NCBI RefSeq assembly: GCF_037975445.1
Contig: NZ_CP150254.1
Span: forward strand, 5,020,001-5,084,000
Reading direction: 5' to 3'
Length of the DNA: 64,000 bases
Source of the DNA: Peribacillus sp. FSL P2-0133
GTDB taxonomy: Bacteria > Bacillota > Bacilli > Bacillales > DSM-1321
Shown here: piece by piece, positions 28,007 through 31,245 of the stretch
How the letters are laid out: each line of letters starts with the position of its first letter
Numbering within the stretch: the first letter of the stretch is position 1
Made by a program: the position numbers and the translations under genes
Notes under the pieces: generated by a model
Databases searched by the model: none
What the model was told of the DNA's origin: nothing
The model's input: only the letters and a program-made list of their open reading frames with translations

Positions 28007-28035
28007 TTGATTTTATTTTCTGACTATTGTACAAT
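28007..28035 (+). promoter_or_regulatory. Promoter of the T-box leader
   Basis: -35 TTGATT (28007-28012), a 17-bp spacer and -10 TACAAT (28030-28035). Transcription would start near 28042, about 30 nt before stem I of the T-box. Confidence 0.6.
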
Positions 28036-28067
28036 TACTCAAATTCATCTAATTGTAAAATTCCATG

Positions 28068-28325
28068 AAGGGAAGGAGTACGTTATAGCTTCTGTTCCAA
28101 AGAGAGCTGGTGCTTTGCTGAAAGCCAGTGTCCAGAATATAACCGAAAATCATCCCTGAGAAGTAAAGCCCAATCTTCAGTAAGCTTTACCGGTTTCCCC
28201 CGTTATATGGGACAACGTACTATTGTGCGTTTGTAAAGGGTAGTAATGTGCTCTCGAAGCATTTTATTAAACAAGAGTGGTACCGCGAGTTAAAATCTCG
28301 TCTCTTAATGAGACGGGATTTTTTG
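28068..28325 (+). ncRNA. T-box leader, isoleucine specifier (AUC) inferred
   Basis: Stem I shows GGAGTACGTTATA (S-turn AGUA), AGAGAGCTGGTGCTTTGCTG with the conserved distal loop, and the returning TATAACCGAAAATCATCC. Aligned with the glyQS T-box from memory (CGAAAGGCAUUC), the specifier is AUC at 28149-28151, an Ile codon. The T-box bulge is TGGTACCGCG (28278-28287), where UGGU fits a tRNA ending ACCA, as tRNA-Ile does. The terminator is ATCTCGTCTC/GAGACGGGAT with TTTTTT (28293-28325). Uncharged tRNA would allow read-through into the ATP-grasp gene. Confidence 0.92.
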
Positions 28326-28372
28326 TTTTTATCATAATCAATGAAAATAACGGAAAAGCAGGTGCAGGAATA

Positions 28373-29197
28373 ATGCAGACACTATTATTCGTAACAGATT
28401 TATACTATGAAGCAAAAGGAAGAAATTATTATGAGGAGGATTTGTTCCTTACTTCGAAACTTAGAGAAGATTTTCAATTAGTACTATGCCATCCTGAAGA
28501 CATTGAAACGTTTGAAAAGGATTTTGACCTAATCGTATTTCGAAATGCCGGTCCAGTCGCCAATTTTAAAGATAAGTATCTAGCATTCCGTAACAGAGTG
28601 GCTGCTGGTTATTTGAAAACGTACAATTCATTTGTTGGAAAGGCTGATATGAACGGGAAGGAATACTTAATTGAACTGACGAATGCTCAATTCCCTGTCA
28701 TTCCGACCATCGATACACTTGAATCCTTAAATAAACTTCCTGATGTGGAAACATATATAGTTAAGCCGAAAGATGGCGCGGATTCCATCGGTTTGGAATT
28801 TGCCACGAAAGAAGAATTGGGAAATAAAATGGATTCAGAATCAAAGAACACATTGGTGCAGCCATTTATCAACTTTGAGTATGAAGTCTCTTTTTATTTT
28901 ATCGATACGGAATTTCAGTATGCCCTCTATGCGCCTGACAAAGAGAAAAGATGGGAATTAAAAGAATATAAACCTACTGAAGCAGATCTGGCCTTTGCTA
29001 AACGATTTATTGAATGGAACAATCTTGATTGGGGAATCCAACGCGTTGATGCCTGCCGGAATGAACAAGGTGAACTTTTATTAGTAGAACTTGAAGATCT
29101 AAACCCCTTTCTTTCCCTGTTGGAATTAACCGATGAAACACGCCGAAATTTTGTAAAAGCCATGAAAAAATCCTTACAGAAAGCACTTCAGGCTTAG
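28373..29197 (+). CDS. ATP-grasp domain protein under T-box control
   Basis: This protein of about 274 residues has an ATP-grasp layout: an N-terminal pre-grasp domain (LLFVTDLYYEAKGRNYYEED), the ATP-binding lysine strand ETYIVKPKDGADSIGLEF (about 122-140), NTLVQPFINFEYEVSFYF, and the Mg2+ site ELLLVELEDLNPFLSL (about 235-250). ATP-grasp enzymes join carboxylates to amines or thiols via acyl-phosphates. The Ile-specific T-box suggests a role tied to isoleucine or branched-chain supply, for example amino-acid ligation; that is inference. ATG 28373 is the first Met after the terminator. It appears to be monocistronic. Confidence 0.85.
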   Translation: MQTLLFVTDLYYEAKGRNYYEEDLFLTSKLREDFQLVLCHPEDIETFEKDFDLIVFRNAGPVANFKDKYLAFRNRVAAGYLKTYNSFVGKADMNGKEYLIELTNAQFPVIPTIDTLESLNKLPDVETYIVKPKDGADSIGLEFATKEELGNKMDSESKNTLVQPFINFEYEVSFYFIDTEFQYALYAPDKEKRWELKEYKPTEADLAFAKRFIEWNNLDWGIQRVDACRNEQGELLLVELEDLNPFLSLLELTDETRRNFVKAMKKSLQKALQA

Positions 29198-29297: not shown

Positions 29298-29333
29298 GTG
29301 GTGGAAGTTTTAGGATTAAACTTTCACCACTTT
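29298..29333. terminator. Terminator shared by the ATP-grasp gene and the small-ORF unit
   Basis: AGTGGTGGAAGTTT/AAACTTTCACCACT with a T-rich tract on the plus strand and a CTTTTATTTT tract on the minus strand. Confidence 0.75.
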
Positions 29334-29354
29334 ATTTATGGACAAATAAGAATC

Positions 29355-29420
29355 TCACTTGCAAGCTCCGATTTTATGAATCGCAGGCGAGGTTTGCGAT
29401 CCCTTCTTTTTAGCCGTCAT
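29355..29420 (-). CDS. Candidate 21-residue cationic peptide ORF
   Basis: This ORF encodes MTAKKKGSQTSPAIHKIGAC plus a final K. AAAAAGGAGTGG lies nine bases upstream, starting just after the stop of the 58-residue membrane protein gene and in the same frame. A terminator follows within 25 bp. I recognise no family. Its position and site support it weakly. Confidence 0.35.
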   Translation of the reverse strand: MTAKKKGSQTSPAIHKIGACK

Positions 29421-29444
29421 TTGGAAAAACCACTCCTTTTTCAC

Positions 29445-29621
29445 TTATATTTTTGGCCGTTTACTGGTTGCGAATGTTTTATTAAATATTGTGTGACTTA
29501 TTATATAAACCGGTATGATTAACAAATATATATAAACTTTATGTGGCATATACTCAGTAAAATAGCGAATGAATATGATTAACCATATAATTAATACTAA
29601 ATACTTTAATACAACTTTCAT
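29445..29621 (-). CDS. Small two-TM membrane protein (58 aa)
   Basis: ATG 29621 is preceded by AAAGGAG at 8 bp and by an extended -10 (TGATATACT, -10 at 29655-29650). The product has two hydrophobic helices, about 4-20 (VLKYLVLIIWLIIFIRYF) and about 29-45 (VYIYLLIIPVYIISHT), and a basic tail ending SKRPKI. I recognise no family. It is probably a real short gene, possibly with the 21-codon ORF after it. Confidence 0.65.
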   Translation of the reverse strand: MKVVLKYLVLIIWLIIFIRYFTEYMPHKVYIYLLIIPVYIISHTIFNKTFATSKRPKI

Positions 29622-29964: not shown

Positions 29965-31245
29965 TTAAAATGACCTAAGATATTTGACTGCCGTCTCAGC
30001 ATATATCTCGGCAGATTCTACTAAGTTCTCCACTGAAACCCGCTCATCGTACCCATGGATAGTGTGTTCCAGCCCAGGACCGTAAAGGACGGTATCAATG
30101 CCATGGCGCCGGAAGTGACTGGCATCACTTGAACCAAGCAAAAGTACGCTGAAGACGGGTTCCTCCATTCCAAGGACACTCTGGATTCCCAGTTCTATGG
30201 CCCTGACAATTGGACGATTCTCTAAGGTCCAGTTCGGGTTAGTACAGGGTACCATTGGCTCCACAACTGCACCTGGCGCTACAGCACTAACAAGATTCCT
30301 AGCGACATCAAGTACAAACTCGGGCTTCATACCGAATGGAACCCGGGTATCCACTTTAATGATACACTTGTCTGCGACGACGTTCACATTTGTTCCGCCC
30401 TGAATTACACCTGGATTGTAAGAGGGACGATAAAGTAACTGTGACAGTAAGGGATTTCCTAGACGCTGAGATAGGAGCCACTCAGTATTGTACAAAAGTT
30501 GACAAGGCTCTGCCTGTGGCGTTGCCTTGAGCTCCCATAGCTTGGTTAGTGCTTCGACCGCGGCTGCCCCTCTTCGTACGGCGGAGATTCCATAAAGCGG
30601 ATGTAGGCTGCCATGATCTGTCTGACCTGGTATGATCACCTGCATCCATGCCCTGCCCTTTTCACCGGCATTCGGATGGTGGGGGTCCGTTGGTTCACCA
30701 ATCAGACAAGCATCACCCTTAATCAATCCTTGATCCAGGAGCGAGGCCACCTCAATGCCGCCAGTCTCTTCATCCGGAGAGGCAATAACTCCTAGGCTAC
30801 CTTTCAAATTAAGAGTGGGGGCGAACTCCTGAAGTAGTCCAGCCACAAAAATCAGTGATGCCAAGCCTCCTTTCATATCGGAGGCTCCCCTCCCCAAAAG
30901 CATACCTGCTCTGACTTCTCCTGAGAATGGATCGAAGGTCCAATGTGAACAATCGCCTGCAGGTACGACATCTGTATGTCCACAAAATAGGAGCCGTGGA
31001 CCAGGTACCCTGGTTAAGGGAGCATCACAGACCACGGTAACCAGCGCATTTTCGCTACGGCGGTGCTCGGTAATCAAGAACCCTTTTGCTGCTAGGTATC
31101 GGCTAATATGGCGTCCCATTTCTGCTGACTGCTTCATAAACTCGGGCGATGGATTTTCAGTTGGAATTCGAATAAATGAAGCAGCAAGTTCGACTAATTC
31201 CTGTTGCCTTGACCTTATCAGCTGCCGGATTATTCTGGTACTCAT
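29965..31245 (-). CDS. M20 family peptidase/deacylase (ArgE/DapE-like)
   Basis: This 426-residue zinc hydrolase has LLFCGHTDVVPAG (metal His and catalytic Asp), LLGRGASDMKGGLASLI (bridging Asp), ASPDEETGG (catalytic Glu-Glu), GEPTDP and the C-terminal metal His in GPGLEHTIHGYDERV. The family removes acyl groups from amino acids or cleaves peptides; the substrate is unknown. ATG start with GGAGGGG 12 bp upstream. The gene is visibly richer in G and C than its neighbours, and a gene fragment and a structured non-coding stretch flank it, so recent acquisition is possible. Confidence 0.88.
   Translation of the reverse strand: MSTRIIRQLIRSRQQELVELAASFIRIPTENPSPEFMKQSAEMGRHISRYLAAKGFLITEHRRSENALVTVVCDAPLTRVPGPRLLFCGHTDVVPAGDCSHWTFDPFSGEVRAGMLLGRGASDMKGGLASLIFVAGLLQEFAPTLNLKGSLGVIASPDEETGGIEVASLLDQGLIKGDACLIGEPTDPHHPNAGEKGRAWMQVIIPGQTDHGSLHPLYGISAVRRGAAAVEALTKLWELKATPQAEPCQLLYNTEWLLSQRLGNPLLSQLLYRPSYNPGVIQGGTNVNVVADKCIIKVDTRVPFGMKPEFVLDVARNLVSAVAPGAVVEPMVPCTNPNWTLENRPIVRAIELGIQSVLGMEEPVFSVLLLGSSDASHFRRHGIDTVLYGPGLEHTIHGYDERVSVENLVESAEIYAETAVKYLRSF

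Follow-up and report, generated by a model that had tools for sequence, protein, structure and literature searches.

This report concerns a regulatory leader and the single gene behind it in a 64,000-nucleotide stretch of Peribacillus sp. FSL P2-0133 (contig NZ_CP150254.1, positions 5,020,001 to 5,084,000). The whole stretch is called the window below, and it corresponds to 5.02-5.08 Mb of a 5.81 Mb genome. A reading made from the sequence only had placed here, at 28068-29197, an isoleucine (Ile) type T-box controlling an ATP-grasp ligase. The features recognised at the locus are as follows.

28007..28035, + strand: promoter-like site TTGATT-17-TACAAT upstream of the leader, matching the consensus at 9 of 12 positions
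28056..28308, + strand: T-box leader (Rfam RF00230, 135 bits, E 6.6e-31)
28149..28151, + strand: specifier codon AUC (Ile), the same in 20 of 20 leaders, in a loop equal to that of the brnQ leader
28274..28306 (end approximate), + strand: antiterminator helices competing with the terminator (Rfam alignment; helices 9 and 10 paired in 20 of 20 leaders)
28278..28281, + strand: T-box bulge UGGU, complementary to the ACCA end of tRNA-Ile (from the sequence)
28292..28332, + strand: intrinsic terminator, hairpin 28292-28322 plus U tract (terminator scan, folding)
28373..29197, + strand: ATP-grasp ligase gene with ATG start, 274 amino acids (open frame; Foldseek match to 6jil, DcsG, E 8.9e-16)

Is the leader a real T-box? 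The match covers the full RF00230 model (positions 1-219), and its score of 135 bits stands against a gathering score of 93. The terminator overlaps the 3' end of the leader and has a T tail, and the segment 28285-28330 folds at -18.3 kcal/mol (z -5.3). Scanning for such sites yields no more than chance would: one terminator-like site was observed in the region against 1.3 expected in shuffles, and four promoter-like sites against 4.5, so the promoter is weak when taken alone; a TACAAT- or TATAAT-like hexamer is seen by eye near the same place in many aligned relatives. Judged from these elements, the leader is almost certainly a genuine Ile T-box attenuating transcription of the ATP-grasp gene. 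The earlier assignment, including the AUC specifier, is confirmed. The span proposed earlier is right for the end of the gene at 29197, while its start at 28068 omits 12 bases of the leader.

The specifier loop reads CCGAA-A-AUC-A, and the brnQ leader of the same genome has the identical loop CCGAAAAUCAUC. In most T-boxes of this genome the codon follows GAA after 0 or 1 base, and the window alone would also permit AAU. Could the leader then sense asparagine? In the 20 related leaders AUC is constant and preceded by A, G or U, so that the shifted frame would read AAU, GAU or UAU (Asn, Asp, Tyr); the Asn frame was excluded because AUC is invariant while the preceding base varies. The tRNA-Ile(GAU) of the genome ends in A-CCA, to which UGGU is complementary, as expected from the discriminator A that the sequence-only reading had assumed.

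The reading of specifiers was calibrated on the other T-boxes of the genome, which holds at least 23 T-box matches (150 of 265 candidates scored), 18 above the Rfam cut-off and five below. The other 22 precede recognised synthetase, permease or amino-acid biosynthesis genes, named here by recognition of translated open reading frames (ORFs). The expected codon was read in 20 of these 22, by eye, with the gene known and any branched-chain codon accepted for brnQ and ilvB; examples are UAC for tyrS, UGG for trpE, GUC for valS, GGC for glyQ and AUC for ileS. The exceptions are hisS (L012), which could not be read, and a permease (L009) that reads Leu and has no independent check. Tandem arrangements were also seen in the census, with three Thr T-boxes upstream of thrS and two Trp T-boxes upstream of trpE (G000:C1:4574155-4574886 and 1574756-1575259).

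In the 20 leaders 89.9% of cells are paired, compared with 41-49% in slid versions of the alignment. Column shuffles are nearly as paired as the real leaders (89.3%) because most columns hardly vary. None of 500 shuffles reached the covariation score or the number of cells changed on both sides; 55 reached the number of pairs with changes on both sides, and 426 that of further pair types. The antiterminator pairs are maintained in all 20 leaders and helix 2 has replaced A-U by G-C in seven of them; one short helix of the leader is paired in 35% of cells.

What does the leader control? A GTG start at 28277, within the T-box, was discarded for the ATG at 28373, which is preceded by AGGTGCAGGA (by eye). 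The next downstream ORF longer than 100 amino acids, of the M20 peptidase family, lies at 29965-31245 on the opposite strand, and a 74-amino-acid frame at 29298-29522 (+ strand) is without support. Since the next ORF is on the opposite strand, the T-box appears to control the ATP-grasp gene alone. An operon with the neighbouring PhzF gene was considered and rejected, as PhzF also lies on the opposite strand.

The family of the protein is seen better in its fold than in its sequence. Pfam ATP-grasp_3 scores 21.5 bits, under the gathering cut-off of 23.2, and the DcsG equivalog model NF058666 of NCBIfam scores 30.7 bits against a cut-off of 360; on four other family members this model gives 32.3 bits once and no match three times. 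A single-sequence search of PDB gave nothing up to E 1, and a profile of the family finds DcsG as its sole match there (E 2.4e-4). The AlphaFold model built from 29 sequences has a predicted local distance difference test (pLDDT) value of 90.1 and a predicted template modelling (pTM) score of 0.89. Its top fold match is again DcsG (PDB 6jil; E 8.9e-16, template modelling score 0.73, 20% identity), followed by LysX/ArgX and D-Ala-D-Ala ligases with 11-16% identity among the matches listed. There were 576 PDB fold matches at E <=0.001, and the 50 listed were all recognised by name as ATP-grasp proteins. By its predicted fold the protein is thus a member of the ATP-grasp superfamily, although its sequence-profile score falls below the cut-off, and the earlier description of a lone ATP-grasp gene behind the T-box stands. 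To call it DcsG was dropped, the score being far under the equivalog cut-off. All 29 sequences keep R224, D226, E239, E241 and N244, to which a metal or ATP role is assigned by analogy. The ratio of nonsynonymous to synonymous divergence (dN/dS) is 0.06-0.21 in 11 of 12 pairs and 0.75 in the youngest pair, which shows few changes. From the fold, the invariant residues and the low dN/dS, we predict that the protein most likely works as a carboxylate ligase. The protein alignment A1 and the tree left out the broken or partial copies L063, L067, L074, L075 and L077, further intact near-copies were unused, and the row of L029 in A1 lacks the first residue. Broken ligase copies without a T-box occur in the window's own genome (G000:C1:2325436-2326255, L092) and in G035 (L063), with a strong hairpin at the place of the leader.

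How widely are the gene and its T-box distributed? The full-length gene is present in 13 of 36 genomes of the genus, the window's own included, and a T-box precedes it in 13 of 13; a fourteenth genome has a fragment. The same search found the gene in none of 25 relatives outside the genus. A scan of a larger collection gave 36 loci, 14 of them with the T-box motif; seven of these are the genus records L042, L043, L044, L045, L054, L055 and L073, counted once in A2. The distinct T-box loci number 20, every one above the Rfam cut-off. By label, the seven outside the genus belong to Lysinibacillus, Ureibacillus (2), Caryophanon, Bacillus sp. and Paenibacillus (2), and the Paenibacillus label of L050 is doubtful because the genome search counts L050 in the window's order. 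The pair of T-box and gene, whose conservation the sequence-only reading had left to be checked, is therefore conserved in all 13 intact genus copies and at seven loci outside.

The distribution is patchy in broader samples as well. The gene was found in two of 398 genomes of a phylum sample (the window's own and G436), in six of 397 of an order sample (the own genome and one fragment included), in four of 349 of the family of a flavobacterial carrier (that carrier included) and in five of 75 of the genus of G436 (the G436 carrier and one two-piece copy included). Homologues without a T-box occur in Clostridia, Bacteroidota, Methanobrevibacter (a copy in two frames) and a prophage-like stretch of Paenibacillus, and homologues lie on six plasmid records from Paraclostridium, Streptomyces and Deinococcus. 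No other Rfam leader stands directly before the T-box-less homologues at six loci (E up to 0.5), nor at gathering level at 13 further ones, where L060 offers only 255 bases upstream. A cyclic di-GMP aptamer was seen some 490 bases before the broken copy L067. No single branch in a tree of 33 proteins separates the T-box carriers from the rest; five changes are needed, at least two of them forced by starred branches.

Have the leader and the gene travelled together? At eight loci (L046, L047 and L049-L054) about 1.2 kb, from about -380 to +825 relative to the ATG, is 92-97% identical in DNA. The group spans Lysinibacillus, Ureibacillus, Caryophanon, Paenibacillus-labelled genomes and Peribacillus huizhouensis (L054), and the surroundings differ: around these units there is no other DNA match longer than 150 bases apart from a pair of short stretches that L047 and L049 share in the glmS part. 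In the ligase gene the synonymous divergence (dS) is 0.034 between P. huizhouensis and Ureibacillus manganicus and 0.097 between another Peribacillus and Caryophanon. The best isoleucyl-tRNA synthetase (IleS) is 87-89% identical to that of the window in two Peribacillus and 70% in the Ureibacillus and Caryophanon genomes. Judged from the low dS of the ligase despite divergent IleS, sensor and enzyme have moved together by recent horizontal transfer among relatives of the window copy. Other copies are farther from this group, L045, L055 and L073 at about 84-88% identity and L042-L044, the near relatives of the window, at 76-80%; the copy in the window sits on a Peribacillus branch that has diverged further.

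In L048, labelled Paenibacillus lautus, the gene is 94-97% identical in DNA to those of close T-box carriers and homology ends 33-45 bases upstream of the ATG; other DNA, ending in a different terminator-like hairpin, stands in place of the T-box. L047 and L049 have glmS, together with its ribozyme leader, upstream of the unit, at about 1.0 and 2.6 kb from the ligase ATG; the end of glmS is an insertion hot spot for Tn7-like elements. A search of IMG/VR gave two loci. L132 is an IMG/VR contig; its stretch, the same as that of L129, is also found in G1198, a genome of the G436 genus. There the ligase gene comes after an integrase and both terminase subunits, and in L131 a gene for a phage-type DNA methyltransferase lies downstream of the ligase gene. 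L129, L131 and L132 have a common promoter-like upstream region, with no T-box motif in the upstream sequence inspected. At L057, L091 and L130, also of the G436 genus, no phage context was found in the part inspected.

There is a further feature at the borders of some copies of the unit. A palindromic repeat (about CAACAATCGGGCCATTTTGTGGA) lies at -481 to -492 in four of 22 loci (L034, L049, L052, L054) and at +877 or +878 in four (L034 weakly, L048, L049, L052). It is at neither end in the remaining scanned loci, and the window has none near the gene. Homology in several locus pairs stops near the repeat positions; L053 and L054 share more. The repeat matrix was built from matches that include the one in L054, and a shuffled window gives 0.9 matches per 64 kb. 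With up to three mismatches the repeat is dispersed: there are 10 matches in the own genome and 17, spread over 15 places, in G029, one each in three genomes and none in two; the reversed repeat, as a control, had no match in all seven genomes. It often brackets one or two genes in the stretches inspected, and around the unit itself inverted repeats are short imperfect pairs only. The palindromic repeat may be a mobility signal or a mere place of recombination. A terminator-like hairpin, GGGCGCAATTCTTG..., is sometimes beside it. Many one- or two-gene Peribacillus stretches (L145-L157) are surrounded by it in a way that resembles the borders of gene cassettes. Among 10 bracketed or adjacent genes Pfam recognises GNAT, DinB, beta-lactamase-fold, oxidoreductase, esterase, HAD, methyltransferase, RCC1-repeat and DUF2716 proteins, and one is without a family. 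Three genes in these stretches score over their NCBIfam cut-offs: a rifamycin phosphotransferase (rph) at L145:12518-15130, about 2 kb from the nearest repeat and about 2.8 kb from the L145 copy; a dihydrofolate reductase of the DfrD/G/K type at L154:15843-16340, within about 0.3 kb of the repeat; and a member of the D-Ala-D-Ala ligase subfamily (Ddl-like) at L156:8776-9801, within about 0.2 kb of it.

The neighbours of the ligase gene are not constant. No cluster besides the ligase occurs in more than five of the 36 loci and the window; the PhzF cluster reaches five (window, L042, L043, L044, L071). Two 25-kb Streptomyces stretches, with ORFs picked by a rough composition rule, have the ligase alone in common. 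A RidA gene, recognised by Pfam at L070 and by similarity at L072, adjoins these two flavobacterial homologues; an agmatinase-family gene is a companion at L126, and one flavobacterial copy follows such a gene. A cycloserine gene set was not noticed among the annotated neighbours, which are part of all neighbours, and no partner for an Ile pathway or peptide biosynthesis recurs in the neighbourhoods examined. The lack of a constant neighbour and the sporadic companions argue against a fixed pathway. Co-occurrence with IleRS2 was looked for in a small sample of 11 genomes, of which two have both a near and a divergent IleS (33-35%) and two a divergent one only (35-36%), too small a number for a conclusion. 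Divergent IleS proteins in G811, G813, G814 and G816 (33-36% identical, frames of 1030-1078 amino acids) resemble the IleRS2 type.

Why would an ATP-grasp enzyme be placed under an Ile T-box? The best explanation of the locus is that the leader and the gene form a self-contained accessory unit. We infer from the sequence that the unit is induced by uncharged tRNA-Ile, whose GAU anticodon can pair with AUC and whose ACCA end can pair with UGGU; in known T-boxes such pairing by an uncharged tRNA favours the antiterminator, and with charged tRNA-Ile the terminator would stop transcription before the gene. The enzyme might then ligate or phosphorylate, at the expense of ATP, an inhibitor, amino-acid-like or a carboxylate, that leaves tRNA-Ile uncharged, and so inactivate this inhibitor; candidates would be an Ile mimic or an inhibitor of isoleucyl-tRNA synthetase (IleRS). 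The T-box would serve as a damage sensor, in that failure of the target switches the gene on. Our preferred reading, held tentatively, is a mobile and inducible protection of Ile charging by an ATP-grasp enzyme. Protection is favoured because ligating Ile while Ile-tRNA is empty would be poor logic, and core metabolism is a poorer fit than protection for a lone, patchily distributed gene whose relatives include plasmid- and phage-borne ones. The more specific form, a mobile and sometimes repeat-bounded cassette of Bacillales in which an Ile T-box detector is joined to an enzyme inactivating a natural IleRS inhibitor or Ile mimic, is possible and commands less of our confidence. DcsG, the nearest fold, makes an amino-acid-analogue antibiotic, and this and the rph gene near the L145 copy are counted in favour of protection. 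The carboxylate of mupirocin is reported to matter for binding to IleRS1 (PMC10485003); this makes carboxylate-bearing inhibitors plausible substrates, only as a lead.

Several observations weigh against protection by a mobile unit. Among homologues outside one Bacillales group the Rfam scan found a T-box at none of six loci and none of 13 further ones; the link to Ile is therefore not intrinsic to the family. The window copy and the Caryophanon copy differ by a dS of 1.43, and the chromosomal place of the window copy is common to its near relatives L042-L044, so that recent mobility concerns the relatives only. The gene was not found in a search of phage records, and the ligase had no match in PHROG. 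An aminotransferase gene lies 3' of the ligase in L056 and L067 (the L067 ligase being broken) and an aldo/keto reductase gene in L071 and L128, either of which could indicate metabolism. Patchy mobility, too, fits many accessory enzymes that protect against nothing.

If not protection, what else might the unit do? The Ile T-box could act as a general switch for starvation or stress, with a substrate unrelated to Ile; the enzyme might make, for example, a dipeptide, a signal or an antibiotic. We regard this as somewhat doubtful: in its favour, the T-box is joined to the ligase family in one Bacillales group only, but AUC is invariant in 20 of 20 leaders while the neighbouring base and other parts of the leader vary, and the identity of the amino acid therefore seems to be selected. 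The enzyme could instead serve the Ile economy, supplying or recycling Ile or a precursor, or making or remodelling an Ile compound as the sequence-only reading had proposed. According to Wels 2008 (PMC2494555), 92% of T-boxes precede synthetase, transport or biosynthesis genes, and the present genome agrees; the aminotransferase and RidA genes beside two homologues each point the same way. Against it, genes of the Ile pathway do not recur beside the ligase in the loci examined, the bulk of the ligase family has no T-box, and by reasoning an ATP-grasp ligase would consume free amino acids, yet it would be induced at Ile shortage. The proposal of an Ile-compound enzyme is not supported, as the T-box would induce just when tRNA-Ile is uncharged and spending Ile is a disadvantage, homologues stand alone in varied surroundings, on plasmid records and next to phage genes, and no Ile or peptide partner recurs in the neighbourhoods examined; an Ile-economy role of any kind is unlikely. 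That a brnQ-like T-box landed before the gene by chance and was carried along is very improbable: the specifier loop equals that of brnQ, L048 keeps a close homologue without a T-box and column shuffles are almost as paired as the leaders, but the antiterminator pairs are retained in 20 of 20, helix 2 has changed from A-U to G-C in seven of 20, and the T-box travelled with the gene between genera.

Control of amino-acid supply is the textbook role of T-boxes. What is new here is a leader and gene acting as a mobile unit, in which a T-box and one enzyme cross genera. Such a unit would be a cassette of sensor plus effector, and the sensed amino acid would point to the substrate as something that blocks the attachment of Ile to its tRNA. 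A scattered ATP-grasp family gains a hypothesis that can be tested, and it may reveal an unrecognised natural inhibitor of isoleucyl-tRNA synthetase.

Has such a pair been described before? An ATP-grasp gene under a T-box is undescribed in the literature searched, and the tables of the T-box reviews PMC2271356 and PMC2650889, outside that literature, may hold an earlier mention; the terms T-box and ATP-grasp returned only a paper on wheat phytate, and nothing with isoleucine added. Wels 2008 (PMC2494555) counts 71 T-box genes whose function is unknown or that show no apparent amino-acid link, and names one Ile-related hypothetical gene under a T-box, LBA1071 of Lactobacillus acidophilus.

Compared with known systems, the leader is like the Ile-class RF00230 leaders of ileS and brnQ in all its elements, with AUC, UGGU and the terminator and antiterminator alike; it differs in the gene controlled, which encodes an ATP-grasp enzyme instead of a synthetase, transporter or biosynthesis protein, and in the horizontal mobility of the unit's relatives. 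DcsG (6jil, NF058666) is the best fold match and the only PDB match of the family profile, but identity is 20%, the score is 30.7 against 360 bits, and no cycloserine set was noticed around the copies examined. LysX/ArgX and the D-Ala-D-Ala ligases share the ATP-grasp fold, at 11-16% identity in the matches listed; their chemistry is carboxylate-amine ligation. A likeness in purpose, if the protective reading is right, would be the mupirocin resistance by IleRS2 or plasmid-borne ileS2 (PMC10485003): there, too, a mobile gene answers the failure of IleRS in the same pathway, but by replacement of the target and with a protein unrelated to the present one, whereas here the answer would come from a ligase.
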